Source: Actinomycetota bacterium (GTDB taxonomy: Bacteria; Actinomycetota; Actinomycetes; S36-B12; FW305-bin1). Taken from it: 64,000 nucleotides of DNA. Location of the stretch: contig SCTR01000011.1 of NCBI GenBank assembly GCA_004297305.1, positions 62,001 to 126,000 on the forward strand, given 5' to 3'. A program made the position numbers and the translations under genes. Positions 33,215 to 52,228 of this stretch are shown one piece after another; within the stretch, counting starts at the first letter, position 1, and each line of letters opens with the position of its first letter. The notes beneath the pieces were generated by a model. That model did no database searches. It was not told the DNA's origin and was given only the letters and a program-made list of their open reading frames with translations.

Positions 33215-34177
33215 ATGACGGACCTGGCGATCGAAGCCACCGGGCTCGTCAAGATCTTCGGCGACAACCGGGCCGTGGACGGCGTCGATCTCGCCGTCCC
33301 CGGTGGCACGGTCTACGGCGTCCTCGGACCCAACGGTGCCGGCAAGACGACCACCATCCGGATGCTCGCCACCTTGCTGCAGCCGGACGGCGGGACCGCC
33401 CGGGTCATGGGTCACGACGTGGTCTCCGAGGCTCGGCAGGTCCGCAAGGCGGTCAGTCTCACCGGCCAGTTCGCGTCTGTCGACGAGGAACTGACCGGTA
33501 CCGAGAACCTCGTCCTGCTCGCCCGCCTGTACGGCTACCGCAGGGGGGCGGCTCGCCGGCGCGCGGCGGAACTGCTGGCTGCGTTCGGCATCGCCGACGC
33601 CGCGGGCCGGCAGGTCAAGTCGTACTCCGGCGGGATGCGGCGGCGCATCGACATCGCCGCCAGCATCGTGGTCACTCCGCAGCTGCTGTTCCTCGACGAG
33701 CCGACGACCGGGCTGGACCCTCGTAGCCGCAACCAGGTGTGGGACGTCGTCCGGCTGATGGTCGACTGCGGGACGACCGTCCTGCTCACCACGCAGTACC
33801 TCGACGAGGCCGACCAGCTCGCCGACCGGATCGCCGTGATCGATCACGGCCGCGTCATCGCCGAGGGCACCAGCAGTGAGCTGAAGTCCCGCGCCGGTGC
33901 CGGCTCACTGCAGCTTCGACTCGCGCAGCCCGCGCTGCGCGACCAGGTGAAGGACCGCCTCGCTGCACTGCTCGGACTTCCGGTGGTCGCCGACGGCGAC
34001 CCGGCGGTGCTGACCGCGCAGGTCGCCGATCCCGGGCGGGTCGCCGCCGTGCTGGCCCGGCTCGCCGACGACGGGGTCGACATCGTCGGCTACGCGGTCG
34101 GGCAGCCGAGCCTCGACGAAGTGTTCCTGGCGCTCACCGGCCACCACGCCGAAACGACGGACGAGGAGGTGGCATGA
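33215..34177 (+). CDS. ABC transporter ATPase, DrrA-like
   Basis: A 320-residue ATP-binding protein. Walker [10 protein letters not shown] is at 38-46, the signature YSGGM at 137-141 and Walker B LFLDE with Asp161-Glu162; '[13 protein letters not shown]' at the C-terminus is the DrrA-clade hallmark. The ATG follows GGAGGGAG. It overlaps the permease gene by 4 nt (ATGA), so the two form one exporter. DrrAB-type systems export anthracyclines or other lipophilic compounds; the substrate here is unknown and no biosynthetic cluster is present. Confidence 0.93.
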
Positions 34178-35019
34178 GTACGCCGACGGCCCAGGCCGCA
34201 CCGGACACCGCTGTGGCCGGCGACGGGCTGCGGGGCGTCCTGGCGACCGGCAGCCGCCCGCCGGCACCCGGGGCGGTCACGAACTCGCTCACCTACGGCT
34301 GGCGTGCCCTGCTCCGGATCAAACACGTGCCCGAACAACTCATCGACGTCACGCTGTTTCCGATCATGTTCACGCTCATGTTCACGTTCCTGTTCGGTGG
34401 CGCGCTGGCCGGCTCCCCGTCGGAGTACGTGCAGTTCCTGCTTCCCGGGATCCTCGTGCAGACCACGGTCTTCATCACGATGTACACGGGCCTGAACATG
34501 GCCACCGACATCGACAAGGGCATGTTCGACCGATTCCGGTCGCTGCCGATCTGGCAACCGGCACCGGTCGTCGGAGCGATGCTCGGAGATCTCGCCCGGT
34601 TCGCCACAGCCTGCGCAATGGTCATCGTGCTGGGACTGATCCTCGGCTTCCGTCCGGTGGGCGGTCCGACCGGTGTTCTGCTGGCCATCGCGCTCGTCCT
34701 GGTGTTCTGCTGGGCGGTGTCCTGGATCTGGATCCTGGTGGGGCTGTATGTCCGGAGCCCGAACTCGGTCATGGGGATCAGCATGATGATCCTGTTCCCG
34801 CTGACCTTCGCCAGCAACATCTTCGTGGATCCCGCCACGATGCCCGGGTGGCTGCAGACGGTGGTCGAGTACAACCCGATCAGCTACCTGGTCACTGCGG
34901 TTCGCGACCTCATGGCCGGACAGCTGCCGGGATCGGACCTCACCGTCGTGCTGGTCGTCGCGGCGGCGATCGTCGCGAGTTTCGGGCCGCTGTCGATGCA
35001 CCGGTACCGGACCCGCTGA
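34174..35019 (+). CDS. ABC-2 type permease, DrrB-like
   Basis: A 281-residue membrane protein with six hydrophobic segments. '[23 protein letters not shown]' (in part), '[18 protein letters not shown]', '[21 protein letters not shown]' (in part) and '[21 protein letters not shown]' (in part) are characteristic of the DrrB/ABC-2 family. A GGAGG site lies inside the end of the ATPase gene. It forms the membrane channel for the adjacent ATPase. Confidence 0.93.
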
Positions 35020-35049
35020 CGTCGGCGGGGCCCGTGGCATGATCGCGCC

Positions 35050-36021
35050 ATGGAGTACACCCAACTCGGCCGCACCGGACTCACTGTCAGCAGACTCGTC
35101 CTCGGCACCATGAATTTCGGCCCCGCTACGACAGAACCCGACTCGTTCCGGATCATGGACGAGGCTCATGAGCTGGGCCTCAACGTGTTCGACACCGCCA
35201 ACGTGTACGGCGGCGAGCTCGGCCGCGGCGCGACGGAGACCATCGTCGGAAACTGGCTCGCCCAGGGCAACGGCCGGCGCGAGCGAACCGTGCTGGCGAC
35301 CAAGGTCTTCAACAAGATGGGTGACTGGCCCAACGAGTCGAGGCTGTCGGCGACGCATATCCGCCGCGCCTGCGACGAGTCGCTGCGGCGGCTGCAGACC
35401 GACCACATCGACCTGTATCAGATGCACCACGTGGACCGGCAGACTCCATGGGAAGAGATCTGGACCGCGATGGACATCCTGCGGACGCAGGGCAAGGTGA
35501 CGTACGTCGGCACCTCGAACTTCGCGGGCTGGCACATCGCGCAGGGCCAGGAGACCGCGACCCGCCTGGACACCCTGGGCCTGTCCAGCGAGCAGTGCAT
35601 CTACAACCTGATCAACCGCTCGGCCGAGCGCGAGGTCCTCCCGGCGTGCGAGGCGTACGGGATCGGCGTCATCCCGTGGTCGCCGCTGGACAGCGGCCTG
35701 CTCGGCGGAATCCTGCGCAAGCAGGCCGAAGGGCGCCGCCGCTACGAAGGACGGGCCGAGCGTGATCTCGAGCCGCACCGGGCGCAACTGGTCCAGTGGG
35801 AGGCGCTGTGCGACGAGCTCGGACACGAACCGAGCCACGTCGCTATCGCCTGGTTGCTGACCCGGCCGGCGGTGACCGCACCCATCGTCGGGCCGCGGAC
35901 TTCCGAGCAACTGGCCGGCATGGCCGCCGCGCTCGACGTCACCCTCGACGCGGCGACCCTGCAGCGCATCGACGAGATCTTCCCGGGTCCCGGACCGTCG
36001 CCGGAGGACTTCGCCTGGTGA
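35050..36021 (+). CDS. aldo/keto reductase
   Basis: A 323-residue TIM-barrel NAD(P)H oxidoreductase. The catalytic tetrad is visible: Asp in 'VFDTANVYGG', Tyr in the same segment, Lys in 'LATKVFNKMG' and His in 'LYQMHHVDRQ'. 'GPRTSEQLAGMAAALDVTLD' (in part) is the C-terminal cofactor-binding motif. Substrates are aldehydes or ketones, not predictable more closely. It follows the DrrAB-like pair by 30 bp and precedes an LLM oxidoreductase by 22 bp, so co-transcription is likely. Confidence 0.92.
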   Translation: MEYTQLGRTGLTVSRLVLGTMNFGPATTEPDSFRIMDEAHELGLNVFDTANVYGGELGRGATETIVGNWLAQGNGRRERTVLATKVFNKMGDWPNESRLSATHIRRACDESLRRLQTDHIDLYQMHHVDRQTPWEEIWTAMDILRTQGKVTYVGTSNFAGWHIAQGQETATRLDTLGLSSEQCIYNLINRSAEREVLPACEAYGIGVIPWSPLDSGLLGGILRKQAEGRRRYEGRAERDLEPHRAQLVQWEALCDELGHEPSHVAIAWLLTRPAVTAPIVGPRTSEQLAGMAAALDVTLDAATLQRIDEIFPGPGPSPEDFAW

Positions 36022-36043
36022 GCGCGACAGGTCGGCGCGCGCG

Positions 36044-36931
36044 GTGAAGTTCGCCCTGATGCTCGGCGGGCCGCCGCCGGACCAGTACGCCGGGATCGCC
36101 GCACTGGCCGAGGACGCCGGGTTCGAATCCGTCTTCGTCGCCGACCACGTCGTGTTCCCGCCGCAACTGCCGGCGACGTATCCGCACACCGCCGACGGTG
36201 TGCCGCCCGTCCTGCCGACCGTGCCGCTGTTCGACCCGCTGGTGGTCCTGGGTGCGGTCGCCACCGCCACCACCTCGATCCGGCTGGGCACCGGTGTCTA
36301 CCTGCTGCCGCTGCGGCATCCGCTGCACGTCGCCCGCATGCTGGTCACCGTCGACGCACTGTCCGGCGGCCGAGTGACGCTCGGCGTCGGCGTCGGCTGG
36401 CTGGAAGACGAGTTCGCGGCGCTGGGGGCGTCCTTCGGCAGTCGTGGCCGACGCACCGACGAGATGATCGCGGTGCTGCGCCGGCTGTTCGCCGAGGACG
36501 TCGTGGCCCACTCCGGTGACTCGTTCTCGTGGCCACCCATGCGGTTCGAGCCCAAACCGGCTCGGCCCGAGGGGATTCCGATCGAGATCGGCGGGATGTC
36601 CGCGGCAGCGATGCGGCGTGCGGGAACCGTGGGCGACGGCTGGCTGGAAAGCGGCAGCAAGGACCTGACCGACCTGGCCGGCCGGATCGACATCGTGCTG
36701 GGGCATCGCGCGGCGGCCGGGCGCGGTGGCCCGTTCGAGATCACCAGCCGGATGCCGGCGTCGTTCGACCCGGCCGCAGTCCAGGCCCACGCCGAGATCG
36801 GCGTCACGCGGATCGCCAGTCGCCCGCCGGTGGCGCACGGCAGCCGGCCGGGCGCGGACGACTACCAGCGGTTCATCGAGCGGTACGCGCGTACCGTGAT
36901 CGAACCCTACGGCGCCGGCCACCCGAGCTGA
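36044..36931 (+). CDS. LLM-class F420-dependent oxidoreductase
   Basis: A 295-residue luciferase-like protein of the F420-dependent type. 'GLGAVATATTSIRLGTGVYLLPLRHP'-like sequence near residues 68-93, 'LSGGRVTLGVGVGWLEDEFAALG' (in part) and 'EGIPIEIGGMSAAAMRRAGTVGDGW' (in part) are signatures. It starts with GTG and lies 22 bp after an aldo/keto reductase. It differs in length and detail from the other LLM protein at 28711 and is not a recent copy. The substrate is unknown. Confidence 0.9.
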   Translation: MKFALMLGGPPPDQYAGIAALAEDAGFESVFVADHVVFPPQLPATYPHTADGVPPVLPTVPLFDPLVVLGAVATATTSIRLGTGVYLLPLRHPLHVARMLVTVDALSGGRVTLGVGVGWLEDEFAALGASFGSRGRRTDEMIAVLRRLFAEDVVAHSGDSFSWPPMRFEPKPARPEGIPIEIGGMSAAAMRRAGTVGDGWLESGSKDLTDLAGRIDIVLGHRAAAGRGGPFEITSRMPASFDPAAVQAHAEIGVTRIASRPPVAHGSRPGADDYQRFIERYARTVIEPYGAGHPS

Positions 36932-36975
36932 TCCGGTGCGGCTGGGTACCGTGGCACTCCGCCGGAGGGGGGATC

Positions 36976-38514
36976 GTGGGTGACCTGATGCCACCGAGTC
37001 TGCTGTTCGGCGATCCGACCGCAGCCTCGGCCCCGGCAGACCCAGCCGTGCAACGCCGGGACCTCAACGTCGACCAGATCGTCGCCGACCTCACCACCGG
37101 CGACGACGAGGACCTGGTCTCCCTGTACGCCGCCGGACCGGCCGACCGTGCCACCGTCGAACACCGTCACGCCGTGCTGACCGACCTGGCCCAGCCTGCC
37201 AACCAGGCCGTGCTGCGCACCTTCGTCGCCCGCATGTCGCGGCTGCGCGACCAGCTGCGGCTGCTGCATTCGCCGTACACCCGGCACCAGACCCCCGCCT
37301 GGTGTCTGGAAGCAGCTGAGACCTACTGCGGCAGCGTCCTGGAACTCGTCGCGGGGCTGCGCGCGGCACCGGTCGGCTCGGCCGGCCTGATCGGCTACCG
37401 CGACTACCTCGTCGACTACACCGAGTCGGCCGAGTTTGGCCGGTTGTCGGCCGCGGCGGCAGAGCTGCGGCAGCTGTTGTCGGGCGTCGAGTACTGCGTC
37501 CAGCTCGACGGCAACAGAGTCACGGTCTCCGGCTACGACGGGCAACCGGACTACACCGCCGAACTGGCGGCCACGTTCGCGCGATTCGACCCGGGCGACC
37601 GCCCGCCGTTGGTCACCACCGAGACCGCCCGGGTCGCGATCAACGGTGTGGAGACCGAGATCCTCGACCGGGTCGCCGACCTGCACCCGGCGGCGTTCGG
37701 TCAGCTCGAGCAGTTCTACGCCGGGCAGTCCGAGCAGTTCCCGGCAGCCGCCGTGGTCGAGTTGGACCGGCAGGTCCGCTTCTTCCTGCGCTACCTGGAC
37801 TACCTCGCCCCGATGCGCGATGCCGGCCTGCCGTTCTGCCTGCCCGCCTTGGTGGACTCCGCGGCCACGCTCGCCGTCACCTCGTCGTTCGATCTCGCCC
37901 TCGCCCGCCGGCAGGTGCTGGCCGGAAACACGGTGGTGTGCAACGACGTCCAGCTGGCCGGTGCCGAACGCGTCATCGTCGTCACCGGACCCAATCAGGG
38001 CGGCAAGACGACCTTCGCTCGCGCGGTCGGTCAGGTGTTCCTCCTCGCCGGCCTCGGCCTGCCGGTACCGGGGCGCTCAGCCACGCTTCGGCTGCCGGAC
38101 CGGATCTTCACCCATTTCGAGCAGGCAGAGGACCTCCGCCGTGCCGGCGGGCGGCTCGAGGACGAGTTGGTCCGATTGGCCGACACGCTGCGTGACGCGA
38201 CGTCCGACAGTGTCCTGGTGCTGAACGAACCGTTCAGCTCCACCACGACCGAGGACGCCGCGCTGCTCGCCCAGCGGGTACTCGATCGTGTCGTGGGGTC
38301 CGGCGCACTGTGCATCTGCGTGAGTTTCATTCCCGACCTGGGAGCCGGTTCGCCCACCACGGTGACCATGGTCAGCGAACTCGTCCCGGACCGACCCGCC
38401 GACCGTACCTACCGGATCGTGCGTGCCACCCCGGACCCTCGGGCGTACGCGACAGCGCTCGCCGCCCGACACGGTCTCACCTACTCGCAGCTCACCGAAC
38501 GGCTGGCCCGATGA
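36976..38514 (+). CDS. MutS-like ATPase lacking mismatch-recognition domain (first of a tandem pair)
   Basis: A 512-residue protein. Residues ~15-330 are a helical core like the MutS lever/clamp ('DLNVDQIVADL', 'RHAVLTDLAQPANQAVL'). A MutS domain V ATPase follows: Walker A GPNQGGKTT at 338-346 and a Walker B of the form LVLNEPFSSTTTEDA with Asn417-Glu418. The N-terminal mismatch-binding domain of true MutS is absent. The GTG start has GGAGG seven bases upstream. Its stop overlaps the ATG of a second MutS-like gene. Actinobacteria generally lack MutS/MutL repair, so this is unlikely to be canonical mismatch repair. Confidence 0.82.
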   Translation: MGDLMPPSLLFGDPTAASAPADPAVQRRDLNVDQIVADLTTGDDEDLVSLYAAGPADRATVEHRHAVLTDLAQPANQAVLRTFVARMSRLRDQLRLLHSPYTRHQTPAWCLEAAETYCGSVLELVAGLRAAPVGSAGLIGYRDYLVDYTESAEFGRLSAAAAELRQLLSGVEYCVQLDGNRVTVSGYDGQPDYTAELAATFARFDPGDRPPLVTTETARVAINGVETEILDRVADLHPAAFGQLEQFYAGQSEQFPAAAVVELDRQVRFFLRYLDYLAPMRDAGLPFCLPALVDSAATLAVTSSFDLALARRQVLAGNTVVCNDVQLAGAERVIVVTGPNQGGKTTFARAVGQVFLLAGLGLPVPGRSATLRLPDRIFTHFEQAEDLRRAGGRLEDELVRLADTLRDATSDSVLVLNEPFSSTTTEDAALLAQRVLDRVVGSGALCICVSFIPDLGAGSPTTVTMVSELVPDRPADRTYRIVRATPDPRAYATALAARHGLTYSQLTERLAR

Positions 38515-40037
38515 GAGTGGCGTTGCTTCACCCGCCGGCGGCACCGGCCTCCGGCGAGCCGCGACCACCGGATCGGTCACTGCTGCCGGAGCTGGCGCTG
38601 CCGGCGCACGAGTCCGATCTTCGACGCGACCTTGAACTCGACGTCATTCTCGACGCGATGGCACAGCGCGACCCTGTCCTGCGCGAGATCGCCCACCACG
38701 GCCTGCTGACCGGCCTGCGCACGGTCGACGCGATCCGCTACCGCCAGCACGTGCTGGCCGACTGTCTGCGCAACCCCACGGTGCTGCGTGAGTTCTACGC
38801 CGTCACCGCGGAGTCGATCCGGGCCGAGCGACGCGCGGTCGTCGGCCGCACCAACCGCAGCCCGGAAGGCGTCGTACGGACCGCGGCCGGCGTGCTCGAC
38901 CAGTTCGTCGCCACGCTGCGGAGGCTCCGCGCGCTCGCCGCTGATCACGGCGCCGCCTTCCGCTCCGACGGCCTGCGCGACCTGATGACCGAGTTGACCA
39001 CCGGGCTCGACGAGTCCTACCTCGACACGGTCACCGACCACCTGCAGCGGCTGCGGTTCCGCGACGGAGTACTGGCCAGTGCCCGGCTCGGCGAAGGCAA
39101 CCGGGGGACCGGATACGTGGTGCACGATCCGTTGTCGCGGCGGCGGCCGTGGCTGCCCCGGCTGGGCGCGGCGCGGCGGGCTGCGGCGTTCGAGGTGGCC
39201 AACTACGACGAGGTCGGCCTGCGAGAGCTGGCCAAACTGCGCGGCGACGCACTGCGGGACGTCGCCGCGACGCTCGCCACTGCGACCGAGCACATCCTGG
39301 GCTTCCTGCAGTCGTTGCGCGCCGAGTTGGGCTTCTACGTCGGATGCGTGAATCTGTCCGACGCCCTGCGCCGGGTGGGTACACCGACCTGTCTGCCGGA
39401 CCCGGTGCAGCCCAACGGATCGGTGGTCTGCACCGCGCGCGGACTGCGCGACATCGCCGTCGCCCTGCAACCGGACACCCTTGCCGTCGGCAACGACCTG
39501 GACGCCGACGGCAGACAGCTGGTGGTCGTGACCGGGGCGAACTCCGGGGGCAAGTCGACGTTCCTGCGCAGTTACGGTGCGGCAGTCCTGATGATGCACG
39601 CCGGCATGTTCGTCGCGGCAGACTCGTTCACGTGCGACGTGTTCGACGGTGTCGTCACCCACTTCCCCCGGGAGGAGGACACCTCGATGCAGCACGGCAA
39701 GCTCGACGAGGAACTCCGCCGGATGAGCGACGTCGTCGCCACGCTCGGCCGCCACGACGTGGTGTTGTGCAACGAGTCGTTCGCGACGACCGACGAACGC
39801 GAAGGCGCCCAGCTCGGCAGCGACATCGTCCGGGCGTTGTGCGACGCCGGTCACCAGGTGGTCCTGGTGACCCATCTGTACAGCCTGGCCCGCGACCTGC
39901 TGGCCGACGGGCCCCCGGCGCTGTCGCTACGGGCCGAACGCGACGCCGCCGGAGTCCGGACGTATCGCCTGGTGCCCGGGCAGCCGCAGCCGACCAGCCA
40001 CGGCGACGACATCTACGCCCGCGTGTTCAGTTCCTGA
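38511..40037 (+). CDS. MutS-like ATPase lacking mismatch-recognition domain (second of a tandem pair)
   Basis: A 508-residue paralogue of the preceding protein. 'DLELDVILDAMAQRDPVLREI' (in part) and 'RYRQHVLADCLRNPTVLREF' mirror the first protein's N-terminal core. Walker A GANSGGKST is at 342-350, and the Walker B reads VVLCNESFATTDEREG with Asn421-Glu422. 'LVTHLYSLARDLL' is a MutS-like C-terminal motif. Its ATG overlaps the previous stop, so the two are likely made in equal amount and may form a heterodimer. The last 25 bp overlap the convergent MFS gene. Confidence 0.82.
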   Translation: MRVALLHPPAAPASGEPRPPDRSLLPELALPAHESDLRRDLELDVILDAMAQRDPVLREIAHHGLLTGLRTVDAIRYRQHVLADCLRNPTVLREFYAVTAESIRAERRAVVGRTNRSPEGVVRTAAGVLDQFVATLRRLRALAADHGAAFRSDGLRDLMTELTTGLDESYLDTVTDHLQRLRFRDGVLASARLGEGNRGTGYVVHDPLSRRRPWLPRLGAARRAAAFEVANYDEVGLRELAKLRGDALRDVAATLATATEHILGFLQSLRAELGFYVGCVNLSDALRRVGTPTCLPDPVQPNGSVVCTARGLRDIAVALQPDTLAVGNDLDADGRQLVVVTGANSGGKSTFLRSYGAAVLMMHAGMFVAADSFTCDVFDGVVTHFPREEDTSMQHGKLDEELRRMSDVVATLGRHDVVLCNESFATTDEREGAQLGSDIVRALCDAGHQVVLVTHLYSLARDLLADGPPALSLRAERDAAGVRTYRLVPGQPQPTSHGDDIYARVFSS

Positions 40038-41536
40038 CCGCGCGACGCGGGCGTGCCAGCCGTCGTCTCGGACGACGCGGGCGTGCCGGCCACCGTCGCG
40101 GACGTCGCCGGGCCGGGCTGCGATTCCCCGGCCCGCCGCCGGGCCGCCGGCCGCAGGGACAACAGCACCACGGCGGCGGTCAGGCTGGCACCGGCGGCGA
40201 TCCGCAAGGCCACGGCGTAACCGCCCAAGCCCGGAATCGCCGTACCCGCGGGAGTCGCCATCGTGACGGCGGCGGCGACCGTCGCGGTGCCCAGCGCCTG
40301 CCCGGCGGTCCGGCAGATGAAGTTCATTCCCGCCGCCACCCCCCGCTCTGAGAGCGCCACGGTGCGCACGACGTACGCCGGTGACGCCGACACCAGCAGT
40401 CCGAATCCCAGCGACACCACCGAGGCGCCGATGGCCAACGCGAGCGCCACGTTGTTCCAGACCGACAACAGCACGAAGCCGCCGGTGGCGATCAACGCGC
40501 CGAGCACCAAGGTGGCCAGCAGTCCGATACGCCGGGCCAGCAACGTCATCGACGTCGACGTCGCTGCCTGCACGACGATGCAGGGCAACAGCAACGTCGA
40601 CGCGGCGAAGGTGCTCAGCCCGAGGCCGTAGCCGGCGACGGCTGGGTCGGTCTGCCCGATGACGACGACCACCAGCAGGACCGTGTACTGGCCGAGGCCG
40701 AGAGCCAGCATCGGGACACTGCCGACACAGATGCTGCGACTGAAGAAGACCTTGGTGTCCACCAGCGGATTCCGCGCGAACCAGCCGTGAATCGCCCACG
40801 CGCCGAGGCTGCCGAGCCCGATTCCGGCGACCAGCAGCGTCGTACCGGAACTCCACCCCCAGCTGCCGCCCTCCGACAGCGCCACCAGGCAGCCGGTCAG
40901 GCCCACCACGAGCAGGCCACTGCCCACCAGGTCGATCCGGCCCGTCCCGGCGGGCGGGGCGCTGGCCACGATCCGCCGCGTCACCAGCAGGGCCAGCGCC
41001 GCCACCGCGGCGAGGATGCCGAACATGACCTGCGTGCTGTCGGTCAGCGCGCCCACCGCGCCGCCGAAGAAGAATCCGAGCCCGGCGCCGATCGACGTAC
41101 TGGCACTGAGCAATCCCAGGCTGAAATTCAGCCGCGCGCCCGGCACCGTGTCGGCGATCACCGCGAACCCGAGCGGGACGGCGGCACAGCCGGGACCCTG
41201 CAGCAGCCGAGCCACCAGCAGTAGCGCGAAACTGTCGGTGACCGCGGCGAGCAGGCAGCCGGAGAACAGCAGCGACAGCACCACCAACAGCATCCGGCGC
41301 TTGCCGTACAGGTCGCCGAGGCGGCCCAGCAGCGGTGTGGCGACGGTCCCGGCGACCAGGGCCACGATGACGATCAGGCTGGCCGACGCCTGCGAGACTC
41401 CGTAGTGCGCACTGAGCTTGGGCACCAAGGGGATGACCGAGGTCGTCAGGACGGCGTAGGTGAGTGGCCCGAGCGTGAGACCACCGACGAACAGCAGCAG
41501 CCGAGGCGTCGTCCACGGCGTGTCTGCCCGGGTCAC
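40013..41536 (-). CDS. MFS exporter (DHA2-like, 14 helices)
   Basis: A 507-residue transporter. 'LLGRLGDLYGKRRMLLVVL' is MFS motif A, and 'ARLLQGPGCAAVPLGFAVIAD' (in part) is motif C-like. The C-terminal ~40 residues are a Thr/Ala/Pro tail with a short repeat (AGTPASSETTAGTPASRG). The GTG has GGAGG seven bases upstream. The promoter region holds an array of 17-bp repeats, and a MarR regulator gene lies just upstream on the same strand, a common arrangement for regulated drug exporters. The 3' end overlaps the second MutS-like gene by 25 bp. Confidence 0.9.
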   Translation of the reverse strand: MTRADTPWTTPRLLLFVGGLTLGPLTYAVLTTSVIPLVPKLSAHYGVSQASASLIVIVALVAGTVATPLLGRLGDLYGKRRMLLVVLSLLFSGCLLAAVTDSFALLLVARLLQGPGCAAVPLGFAVIADTVPGARLNFSLGLLSASTSIGAGLGFFFGGAVGALTDSTQVMFGILAAVAALALLVTRRIVASAPPAGTGRIDLVGSGLLVVGLTGCLVALSEGGSWGWSSGTTLLVAGIGLGSLGAWAIHGWFARNPLVDTKVFFSRSICVGSVPMLALGLGQYTVLLVVVVIGQTDPAVAGYGLGLSTFAASTLLLPCIVVQAATSTSMTLLARRIGLLATLVLGALIATGGFVLLSVWNNVALALAIGASVVSLGFGLLVSASPAYVVRTVALSERGVAAGMNFICRTAGQALGTATVAAAVTMATPAGTAIPGLGGYAVALRIAAGASLTAAVVLLSLRPAARRRAGESQPGPATSATVAGTPASSETTAGTPASRGQELNTRA

Positions 41537-41832: not shown

Positions 41833-42282
41833 TCAGATCCGGTCGGCGAGGCGCTCCAGCAGGGGCAGAGCCTTGGCCAACTGCTCCTGCTCGGCGGGGG
41901 TGAACTCGGCCGCCAGTGCAACGGCGACACCGCGGGCGTTGCGCGAGCGCCGGCCGACCAGCAGCCGCCGGCCGGCCGCCGTCACGGTGAGCAGGAACCG
42001 CCGCGCGTCCGCGGCGTCGGGCGCGCGGGCGATGAGGGCCCGCGACTCCAGGATGCCGACGATGACGCTGATGGCCTGCGGGCTGATGCGTTCCTGGTCG
42101 GACAGCGTCGAGGCCGGCAGCGGCCCTTCCCGGTCCAGGCGGGCCAGCACGGACATTTCCGACAGCGTCACGTCGCCGGTGTGCTCGCCCAACCGGAAAC
42201 GCCGCACAATCCGCCCGACCACGATTCGCAGGTCGTTGCCGAGCTGATTGAGGTCAACTGCCTGCTCGCCGTCGTCGATCAC
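41833..42282 (-). CDS. MarR-family transcriptional regulator (paralogue 1)
   Basis: A 149-residue winged-helix regulator. 'DLNQLGNDLRIVVGRIVRRF', 'MSVLARLDREGPL', the recognition helix 'QERISPQAISVIVGILESRAL' (in part) and the wing 'ARRFLLTVTAAGRRLL' are all present. The GTG at 42282 is taken; a longer form from 42315 is possible, as neither has a clear ribosome site. It lies upstream of the MFS exporter and is divergent from an SDR gene. It is strikingly similar to a second MarR at 46124-46594. Confidence 0.9.
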   Translation of the reverse strand: MIDDGEQAVDLNQLGNDLRIVVGRIVRRFRLGEHTGDVTLSEMSVLARLDREGPLPASTLSDQERISPQAISVIVGILESRALIARAPDAADARRFLLTVTAAGRRLLVGRRSRNARGVAVALAAEFTPAEQEQLAKALPLLERLADRI

Positions 42283-42359
42283 GGCGTGAGCGTAGCGGCG
42301 CGATGGGCGCTGCACAGCAGGCGGCAGGTATCTTCGCCGGCGACGACGAGGAGGTCGCC

Positions 42360-46123: not shown

Positions 46124-46594
46124 TCACAACCGGTCGGCCAACCGTTCCAGCAGCGGCAAGGCCGCCAAGAGTTGCTGCTGCTCCTCGGGGCTGAGCTCCG
46201 CGCCGAGCGCGCGGGCGACGTGCTGGGCGTTACGGGAGCGTCGGCCCGCCAGGAGTCGGCGGCCGGCCGGGGTCGCCCACAGCGTCGATCGCCGGCCGTC
46301 CTCGGCGTCCATGCCGCGCGCGATCAGGCCGCGGTCCTCCAGCTTGCCGACGATGGCGCTGATCGCCTGCGGGCTGATCCGCTCCTGCTCGGCCAGCGCC
46401 GTCGGCGGCAGCGCACCGTGCCGTTCGAGGCGGGCCAGCACGGACAGGTCCGACGCCGTCACCTCGCCGCCGAGGTCGCCGAGCCGGAACCGGCGCACGA
46501 TCCGGCCGACCACGATGCGCAGGTCGTTGCCGAGTTGGTTGAGATCGATCGAGTCCGTGCCAGTGCCGGCGGCCGGGGTCGCTGCGGTATCCAT
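46124..46594 (-). CDS. MarR-family transcriptional regulator (paralogue 2)
   Basis: A 156-residue winged-helix protein. 'DLNQLGNDLRIVVGRIVRRF' is identical to the same segment of the MarR at 41833-42282, and the recognition helix 'QERISPQAISAIVGKLEDRGL' (in part) is nearly so. The C-terminus 'LLAALPLLERLADRL' also matches. A short acidic/Ala N-terminus differs. It lies directly upstream of the dioxygenase operon on the same strand. Its position and the palindrome in between suggest it controls that operon. Confidence 0.92.
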   Translation of the reverse strand: MDTAATPAAGTGTDSIDLNQLGNDLRIVVGRIVRRFRLGDLGGEVTASDLSVLARLERHGALPPTALAEQERISPQAISAIVGKLEDRGLIARGMDAEDGRRSTLWATPAGRRLLAGRRSRNAQHVARALGAELSPEEQQQLLAALPLLERLADRL

Positions 46595-49690: not shown

Positions 49691-49723
49691 TGGTGATCAG
49701 TGCCTTTCGTACTCTTGCCCCGT

Positions 49724-49740
49724 ATACCCCAGGGGGGTAT
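49724..49740 (+). promoter_or_regulatory. CsoR-type copper-responsive operator
   Basis: ATACCCC-AGG-GGGGTAT is a perfect 7-3-7 inverted repeat that matches the CsoR operator pattern. It ends 11 bp before the copper ATPase ATG, and its left arm overlaps a TATACC -10-like sequence. CsoR would release it when copper binds. The csoR gene is not in this window. Confidence 0.8.
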
Positions 49741-49750
49741 GGTCGCGGCC

Positions 49751-52228
49751 ATGGGTACGCAACTGCCGTCAGTGACCGACCCGGTGTGCGGGATGCAGGT
49801 CGACCCGGCCACCGCGCGCGAGCACGTGACGTACGACGGGCATACGACGTACTTCTGCTCGGCCTCGTGCCGGGCCACGTTCGAGGCCGACCCCAGCCGC
49901 CACGTGGCCGCGCCGGCCGACGGCCACACCGATCACGCCCATGCCGGGCACGACCATGCCGGGCACGACCATGCCGGGCACGACCATGCCGGGCACGACC
50001 ATGCCGGGCACGACCATGCCGGGCACGACCATTCGGGCCACGGCTCGCCTGCCACCGTCGGGAGGGCCGAGGGTCCGGTCGCGGAGTGGACGTGCCCGAT
50101 GCACCCGCAGATCCGCCGCCCCGGCCCGGGTCCGTGCCCCATCTGCGGCATGGCGCTCGAACCGGTGATGGCGACCGTCGACGACGGACCGAGCCCGGAG
50201 CTGCGCGACATGACCCGCCGCTTCTGGGTCGCCGTAGCGCTGTCCCTCCCGGTGGTACTGCTGGAGATGGGCGGGCACTTCTTCCCCGCCATCCGCGGAG
50301 CGGTCGGCGGGGAACAGGCCGCCATCTATTGGCAGTTCGCGCTCGCGACGCCGGTCGTGCTGTGGGCGGGCTGGCCGTTCTTCGTTCGCGGCGTCCAGTC
50401 GGTCGGCAACAAGAGCCTCAACATGTTCACCCTGATCGCGATGGGCACCGGCGTCGCCTGGGCGTTCTCGGTCGTGGCGACGTTCCTGCCTGGGGTGTTT
50501 CCGGATTCGTTCCGCGGCATGGACGGCACCGTCGACGTGTACTACGAGGCGGCCGCGGTCATCACCACCCTGGTGCTCCTCGGTCAGGTCCTCGAACTGC
50601 GGGCCCGGGAGCAGACCTCGGGTGCCATCAAGGCCCTGCTCGATCTCACCCCGGCCACTGCGCACCGCCTCATCGACGGCCCGGACGGTCACGCCACCGA
50701 GGAGGACGTCGCACTCGACGACCTCGCCGTCGGCGACCGGCTCCGGGTCCGGCCCGGCGAGAAGGTCCCGGTCGACGCCGTCGTGACGGACGGTCGCTCC
50801 ACCGTCGACGAATCGATGGTGACCGGGGAGTCGATGCCGGTGACCAAGCGCGCCGGCGACACCGTGATCGGTGGAACCGTGAACCAGTCCGGTTCGCTGG
50901 TGGTTCGTGCCGACAAGGTCGGCCGCGACACCATGCTCGCGCGCATCGTCCAACTGGTGGCCGACGCGCAGCGCTCCCGCGCACCCATCCAACGCACGGT
51001 CGACCGGGTATCCGCGGTGTTCGTCCCCGCTGTCATCGGTGTCGCGGCGTTGGCGTTCGTCAGCTGGGCGCTCTTCGGCCCCGACCCGAAGCTGGCGAAC
51101 GCCCTGGTCGTTGCGGTCGCCGTCCTCATCATCGCCTGCCCGTGTGCGCTGGGCCTCGCCACGCCCATGTCGATCATGGTCGGCGTCGGTCGTGGCGCCG
51201 GGCTCGGCGTCCTCATCAAGGACGCCGAAGCGCTGGAGCTGATGGAGAAGGTCGACACCGTCGTGGTCGACAAGACCGGCACCCTGACCGAGGGGAAGCC
51301 GACGGTCACCGACGTCGTCCTCGCGGACGCCTCCAGGTCCGCCGGACACGACCGGGCGGCAGTTCTGCGGTTCGCCGGGGCTGTGGAACAGGCGTCCGAG
51401 CACCCGCTGGCGCGGGCGATCGTCGCCGCCGCTCGGCCCGAGGGCAGCAACGCCCGGCTGCCCGGCGTGGCCGACTTCGACGCCCCGGCCGGCCGGGGCG
51501 TCGTCGGTGCGGTCGAGGGCCACCTGGTGCGCGTCGGGACCGCCGCGTTCCTGCGAGACGAGGGCCTCGACCCGGCGTCGCTCGACGCGGCCGCCGAACA
51601 CCTGCGCGGGCAGGGCGCGACCGCGGTGTTCGTCGCCGTCGACGATGTCGTGGCTGCCGTGATCGCGGTCGCGGACGCGGTGAAGGACACGACCCCGCAG
51701 GCATTGCGCCGGCTGCGCGACGAGGGCATCGACGTGGTCATGCTGACCGGCGACAACGCCACGACTGCCCAGGCGGTCGCGGCCAGGCTCGGCATCCAGC
51801 ACGTCGAGGCCGAGGTGATGCCGGACCGCAAGAGCGAACTCGTCGCGCAGCTACGCGCCCAGGGCAAGGTGGTCGCGTTCGCCGGCGACGGCGTCAACGA
51901 CTCCCCGGCGCTGGCAGCTGCGGACGTCGGCCTGGCGATGTCGTCGGGCACCGATGTGGCCATCGAGTCCGCCGGTGTCACGCTGCTGCGCGGCGACCTG
52001 AACGGCATCGCGCACGCCCGCTCGCTGTCCAGAGCGACGATGCGCAACATCCGGAGCAACCTGGCATTCGCCTTCGGCTACAACATGATCGGCATTCCGG
52101 TCGCCGCAGGGGTGCTCTACCCGCTGTTCGGCGTTCTCCTGTCACCGATCATCGCTGCGGCGGCGATGGCCCTCTCGTCCGTCTCGGTGATCGGCAACGC
52201 GCTGCGGCTTCGCAGCCAGCGGCTCTGA
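49751..52228 (+). CDS. copper-translocating P1B-type ATPase with YHS, His-rich and heavy-metal-binding domains
   Basis: An 825-residue metal pump. Order: YHS domain (~7-50, '[10 protein letters not shown]', 'YFCSASC'); His-rich GHDHA repeat (64-98); heavy-metal-binding '[21 protein letters not shown]' (in part, ~113-135); then the P-type ATPase core. Key residues: CPC at 463-465, the phosphorylation DKTGT with Asp507, His551-Pro552 and GDGVND at 712-717. 'GYNMIGIP' and '[15 protein letters not shown]' match copper pumps. It exports copper from the cytoplasm. The CsoR-like operator directly upstream fits. The last 87 bp overlap the convergent glutaminase gene. Confidence 0.93.
49940..50039. 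repeat. 15-bp coding minisatellite (His-rich)
   Basis: CATGCCGGGCACGAC is repeated six times without a single mismatch from 49940 to 50029, followed by a degenerate seventh unit. It encodes HAGHD units of the copper ATPase. Identical codons throughout point to recent expansion or active slippage. Confidence 0.93.

Follow-up and report, generated by a model that had tools for sequence, protein, structure and literature searches.

The stretch of DNA analysed here, 64,000 nucleotides of an Actinomycetota contig (the window), carries two adjacent genes, A and B, which encode MutS-core ATPase subunits (Table 1). The GC content at codon positions 1/2/3 was 0.74/0.50/0.87 in gene A and 0.75/0.49/0.88 in gene B, which is that of real genes in the GC-rich host genome, and the reading-frame check revealed no internal stops in either of them. 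MutS_V was the only Pfam match of both proteins (E 4e-16 for A and 1e-13 for B). The two proteins are paralogous, with 29% identity across 239 aa (E 3e-24). The preliminary description had spoken of two translationally coupled paralogues of about 510 residues, and the lengths, the identity and the ATGA overlap bear this out. It had also placed the pair in a lineage generally lacking MutS, which is right for the host genome (2.68 Mb, 100% complete): no PF00488 (MutS-domain) protein other than A and B was found in the whole of it, and NucS is present.

Further along the window two very similar MarR-type regulator genes flank VOC-like, dioxygenase-like and short-chain dehydrogenase genes, an arrangement which may reflect a local duplication. 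The P-type ATPase gene of the window (E 4e-18 vs a plasmid P-type ATPase) has a DPVCGM motif near its start and by eye resembles a copper-type metal pump.

Table 1. Positions of the gene pair, of its surroundings and of features at related loci (L numbers denote loci; all other positions are those of the window)
Feature	Position	Strand	Description
Gene A	36976..38514	+	MutS-core ATPase subunit A, 512 aa, GTG start
Gene B	38511..40037	+	MutS-core ATPase subunit B, 508 aa, ATG start
ATGA overlap	38511..38514	+	ATG of B over TGA of A, 4 nt, couples A and B
Gap of 44 bp	36932..36975	+	between luciferase-like gene and A; ribosome-binding site GGAGGGGGG precedes the GTG start of A
Upstream same-strand genes	33242..36931	+	DrrA-type ABC ATPase, ABC-2 permease, aldo/keto reductase, luciferase-like oxidoreductase
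MFS exporter gene	40013..41536	-	convergent, overlaps end of B
MarR-type regulator genes	41833-42315 and 46124-46594	-	two very similar genes
P-type ATPase gene	49700-52228		
Two adjacent crcB genes	L069 10519-11227 (G000:C10)		Fluc-type, other contig of the host genome
RF01734	L044 10326-10386		Rfam scan
RF01734	L045 10256-10320		Rfam scan
RF01734	L047 10280-10341		Rfam scan
RF01734	L048 10382-10442		Rfam scan
RF01734	L050 9984-10047		Rfam scan
RF01734	L051 10193-10254		Rfam scan
RF01734	L053 and L054		Rfam scan
RF01734	L063		heads run dynamin-A-B
RF01734	L005 3407-3468		Rfam scan, below gathering score
RF01734	L013 and L061		below gathering score, conserved GGCGAUGG...CCUAC core present
RF01734	L055 and L062		weak, below gathering score
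Dynamin-like GTPase	L045 13560-15677; L005 1536-3203; L013 14552-16465; L063 5282-7093		adjoins the pair
Two A+B copies	L006 2017-5147 and 5087-8190		Arthrobacter MAG, divergent copies in convergent orientation
Split gene A	L049 6255-7890		Rubrobacter radiotolerans plasmid 2, two overlapping frames

Domain layout and ATPase motifs

AlphaFold2 monomer models were built from 19 (A) and 21 (B) sequences; their mean pLDDT was 83 and 79, respectively, and their pTM 0.81. Nearly the whole of each model could be superposed on known structures: on residues 297 to 846, approximately, of MSH2 (Z 29 and 27), on approximately 260 to 790 of E. coli MutS and on positions 1-495 of MutS2, its core (Z approx. 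25-28). Since these alignments begin past the N-terminal part of MutS and MSH2, domains I and II are absent from A and B, in agreement with the earlier remark that the mismatch-binding N-terminus is missing. The predicted layout consists of core/lever, clamp and ABC ATPase, with no mismatch-binding, connector, KOW or Smr domains; as modelled, it is that of a MutS2 deprived of KOW and Smr, or of a MutS deprived of domains I and II.

The Walker A motif is GPNQGGKTT in A and GANSGGKST in B, and the Walker B motif LNEPF and CNESF, respectively, exactly as first described. In the sequence alignment the Walker-B Asn falls on the Asp of MutS2 and MSH3 (LVLIDE, LVILDE), N417-E418 of A being placed on their D-E. 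NE was present in 29 of 29 A and 30 of 30 B relatives and DE in the MutS1 and MutS2 controls, while the catalytic Glu and the Walker A Lys were invariant among the 59 A/B sequences. An engineered E. coli MutS carries the same Asp-to-Asn change (D693N, PDB 3k0s, a title among our structure matches). In the alignments the H-loop of B always keeps VTH, whereas A has V-T/S-F with an invariant Phe (VTH and CVSF in the window copy). The two ATPase sites are not equivalent, since the H-loop His is kept in B and absent from A.

The pair was compared with the known MutS-like proteins. With MutS, MSH2-MSH6 and MSH2-MSH3 it shares a homologous core and ATPase, and the latter two are eukaryotic heterodimers with unequal ATPase sites, as the pair would be. 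Unlike MutS/MSH, it has neither mismatch-binding nor connector domains, no MutL in its gene context and an NE Walker B; with the MutS1 profiles, the cut-offs of which are at least 480 bits, A reached 73 bits and B 45. MutS2 likewise consists of core/lever, clamp and ABC ATPase and has no domains I and II, but the pair ends at the ATPase domain with no KOW or Smr, is made of two different subunits, has NE instead of DE and falls in a separate clan (100/99 support). KamC (NCBIfam NF052383), by its NCBIfam name the lysine 5,6-aminomutase reactivase ATPase, is also a MutS-like ATPase of approx. 508 aa and is named for an enzyme and not for a DNA target. The pair scored 40.9 and 51.9 bits with this model against the curated cut-off of 300, the model matched actinobacterial MutS2-size proteins far better (E approx. 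1e-56), and no KamC above the cut-off was found in 296 genomes of the phylum. Identity with KamC was rejected on the score and because the model tracks MutS2-size proteins.

Relatives of the pair and their genomic surroundings

A collection of related loci, drawn from assembled genomes and from plasmids, contained relatives from Actinomycetota, Dormibacterota and Bacillota and, on plasmids, from Pseudomonadota. The overlap of A and B was exactly 4 nt in 28 of the 29 pairs examined, L062 being the exception, and in the ATPase-domain tree A, B, MutS1 and MutS2 formed four separate clans with 100/99 support. The two clans, the nearly constant overlap and the differing H-loops point to an early duplication which gave rise to a heterodimer with two unlike ATPase sites. 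Judged from their sequences, A and B are the paralogous subunits of a MutS-core ATPase of ancient origin and always come as a pair. The heterodimer proposed earlier thereby gained support from the strict A+B pairing.

Some members deviate from the common arrangement. An Arthrobacter MAG (L006) has two divergent A+B copies, which adjoin enolase, MFS transporter and histidine phosphatase genes; no fluoride riboswitch was detectable in the genome of this MAG. On plasmid 2 of Rubrobacter radiotolerans gene A is annotated in two parts, apparently owing to a frameshift, and B is intact.

On the annotated plasmids the pair is surrounded by crcB, CLC-type channels (CLC-F), enolase, pyrophosphatases (ppa or ppaC) and phosphoglycerate mutase (gpmA), as well as DUF190, universal stress proteins, antiporters of the cation/proton type and subunits of proton-pumping oxidoreductases. 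An E. cloacae operon, ppaC-uspA-eno-gpmA-crcB, confers fluoride resistance according to knockout and complementation experiments, in a paper which makes no mention of MutS (PMC5533749); the operon adjoining the pair on a Klebsiella plasmid has the same gene order. In Rfam scans the fluoride riboswitch RF01734 lay directly 5' of A, or headed the same-strand run ending in A-B, at 14 loci, in five of which (L005, L013, L055, L061, L062) the match was below the gathering score. At six other loci of the family (L003, L006, L052, L064, L065, L066) no riboswitch was seen, although enolase is present in L006 despite the missing riboswitch. Of 16 genomes, 11 had a riboswitch no more than 10 kb from the pair, where 0.17 would be expected by chance (P 1.4e-20); with one genus collapsed the count was 9 of 14 (P 8e-17). 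In the phylum, 396 genomes were compared, and a fluoride riboswitch was present in 12 of the 14 which have the pair and in 77 of the 382 others (Fisher P 5e-7). These P-values overstate independence, because the genomes are related to one another. The association of pair and riboswitch spans four phyla and many genera.

The family is thus tied to the bacterial fluoride response by association, its members lying mostly in fluoride islands and often behind riboswitches. Since the relatives are mostly in fluoride-resistance clusters, the family is likelier to be a fluoride-stress machine than a mismatch-repair one, and a role in fluoride stress is very probable for the family as a whole. The survey of distribution and neighbours proposed in the preliminary description led to four phyla and mostly to fluoride-resistance islands. 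A dynamin-like GTPase gene adjoins the pair in four unrelated loci, and in L063 it is the first gene of the riboswitch-led run.

The copy in the window

On the evidence of its sequence the window copy truly belongs to the family and is intact: the genes are adjacent paralogues, one of clan A and one of clan B, with the 4-nt overlap and the NE Walker B. Its surroundings are different. Fluoride genes were found neither in the window nor within 20 kb past either of its edges, and neither RF01734 nor DUF190 was found in the whole host genome. No riboswitch was detected by Rfam in the 44-bp gap before the pair, even at a relaxed E-value, and a search with the core pattern gave a single, far-away match where 1.3 were expected by chance; in this respect the copy departs from the 14 loci with RF01734 upstream. 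The only fluoride gene found in the host genome was crcB, in two adjacent copies. By its arrangement this crcB pair, which has no riboswitch match, may form a heterodimeric fluoride channel.

In the A+B tree the window copy belongs to a supported group of seven, in which L013 and L063 are fluoride-linked and the other four have no riboswitch. L013, from the same order as the window organism, has CrcB, DUF190, an antiporter, enolase and a weak riboswitch. We conclude that the window copy lost, or never had, the fluoride riboswitch setting. It may be expressed constitutively and keep the role of the family, or it may have been taken over for a different stress, and the chances that it shares the fluoride-stress role are about even.

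Recruitment from fluoride to a job linked to its neighbours, such as xenobiotic or secondary-metabolite stress, is suggested by the ABC transporter, aldo/keto reductase and luciferase-like genes upstream on the same strand, only the 44-bp gap away, by the lack of a fluoride riboswitch in the host genome and by its lack in five of the seven loci of the clade, the window copy included. Against this, the same clade contains the fluoride-linked L013 and L063, the active-site motifs of the window copy are unchanged from those of the fluoride-linked members, and its ABC-exporter, reductase and luciferase-like neighbours do not recur beside the other family members examined. Recruitment is conceivable but on the unlikely side.

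Possible function of the pair

According to the main text of Weinberg 2010 (PMC2864571), 'DNA repair (mutS)' is among the genes which carry the crcB motif in their 5' UTRs; mutS was read there as DNA repair, and DNA-damaging stress was proposed. Fluoride sensing by the motif was shown later (Baker 2012, as cited in PMC5971314). The mutS genes of Weinberg 2010 lie behind fluoride riboswitches, the riboswitch-linked relatives of the pair are annotated likewise on plasmids, and these genes probably are the A/B pair. The main text of that paper describes no two-gene, domain-I-less, Asn-Glu clade, and the window copy has no riboswitch. New here are the fluoride islands of the relatives, while 'mutS' among the crcB-motif genes was already noted there. 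In the literature searched we found no paper joining the fluoride riboswitch and MutS, none testing or classifying the pair and no experimental work on any member. The initial statement that no function had been assigned was nearly right in that no test was found, and needs amending only for the mutS placed behind the crcB motif by Weinberg 2010, as its main text has it.

MutS cores are clamps which shut around a target and alter it with the help of ATP: DNA in MutS, collided ribosomes in MutS2 and, going by its name, an aminomutase in KamC. Regulation by fluoride does not by itself point to the target of the ATPase, and DNA and ribosomes appear to be the less probable ones. We rate a reactivase highest, because fluoride is the signal of the family and fluoride-inhibited enzymes are its companions. 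A and B would form a heterodimeric clamp which closes on the target and, at the expense of ATP, forces it apart or unloads it. As the target, a fluoride-jammed protein complex would be likeliest. Enolase blocked by Mg-F-phosphate and pyrophosphatase blocked by Mg-F-PPi, the genes of which accompany the pair, are possible examples, and such a target would make the pair a reactivase rather than a DNA-repair enzyme. The Asp-to-Asn change in Walker B would tune the handling of Mg2+ and spare the motor from Mg-fluoride trapping; the E. coli MutS mutant with this change was reportedly made to study Mg2+ coordination.

It is an evenly balanced question whether, overall, A and B make up an obligate heterodimer, a MutS-core ATPase which serves in the fluoride response and remodels a fluoride-jammed target, probably a protein. 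That the target of the family is a remodelled protein has slightly less than even chances, enolase or pyrophosphatase specifically is doubtful, and the complete scheme, in which an ATP-driven reactivase resistant to Mg-fluoride through its Asn strips fluoride from metalloenzymes such as these two, must be called unlikely. If the reactivase were true, fluoride-poisoned proteins would be repaired, in place of fluoride export. The current picture of how bacteria resist fluoride has two main parts, export and extra copies of the inhibited enzymes. A dedicated motor of two subunits, placed again and again behind fluoride riboswitches in four phyla and also carried by conjugative plasmids, points to a third arm which has so far escaped study.

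MSH4-MSH5 is a heterodimer also devoid of the mismatch domain, and by analogy the pair could be a clamp of this kind on branched or damaged DNA, the link to fluoride being DNA damage by fluoride stress. The modelled fold of MutS lever, clamp and ATPase and the heterodimer suggested by the paralogy would suit such a role, as would the DNA damage proposed for the crcB-linked mutS in the main text of Weinberg 2010. However, the recurring neighbours of the pair in the annotated islands include no DNA-repair partner (MutL, nuclease or recombinase) and are instead exporters of fluoride, enzymes which it inhibits and ion transporters, and domain-I-less MutS cores work on ribosomes (PMC10897456), which makes a DNA clamp rather improbable. 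The DNA or nucleic-acid target named in the preliminary description is accordingly unsupported, as the genomic company is a fluoride-resistance regulon and other MutS cores have non-DNA targets.

The ATPase of MutS2 splits collided ribosomes, to which the KOW and Smr domains recruit it (PMC10897456). The pair, the models of which match the MutS2 core over almost their full length, might similarly clear ribosomes or translation factors jammed by fluoride in GDP-metal-fluoride traps. It has, however, neither of these recruiting domains, no ribosome-related gene recurs in the fluoride islands, and Rubrobacter and related genomes carry a MutS2-size protein besides the pair, and the probability of this reading is low.

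That A and B are decayed copies, dead ATPases on account of the Walker-B Asn, is highly improbable: the engineered D693N structure does exist as a mutant form, but the Asn is invariant in all 59 sequences from four phyla, the catalytic Glu and Walker A Lys are kept with it and the frames are intact, so that the decay considered at the outset is excluded for the window copy, and an active-site change kept so long would be specialisation. The invariant Asn offers a testable chemical hypothesis joining Mg2+ coordination and fluoride. Anti-phage defence was rejected, since the ATPase matches in PADLOC were all weak (for B, mad8 at 4e-6) and no defence context recurred, and so was a phage origin, with only partial matches to unannotated gut phage records.

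The routine label 'DNA mismatch repair protein MutS' hides the pair and may plant false mismatch-repair genes in genomes. In Klebsiella, Citrobacter, Enterobacter and Salmonella the pair is annotated in this way on large plasmids (including L044), and in E. coli it was found in one of 5426 genomes, also on a large plasmid.
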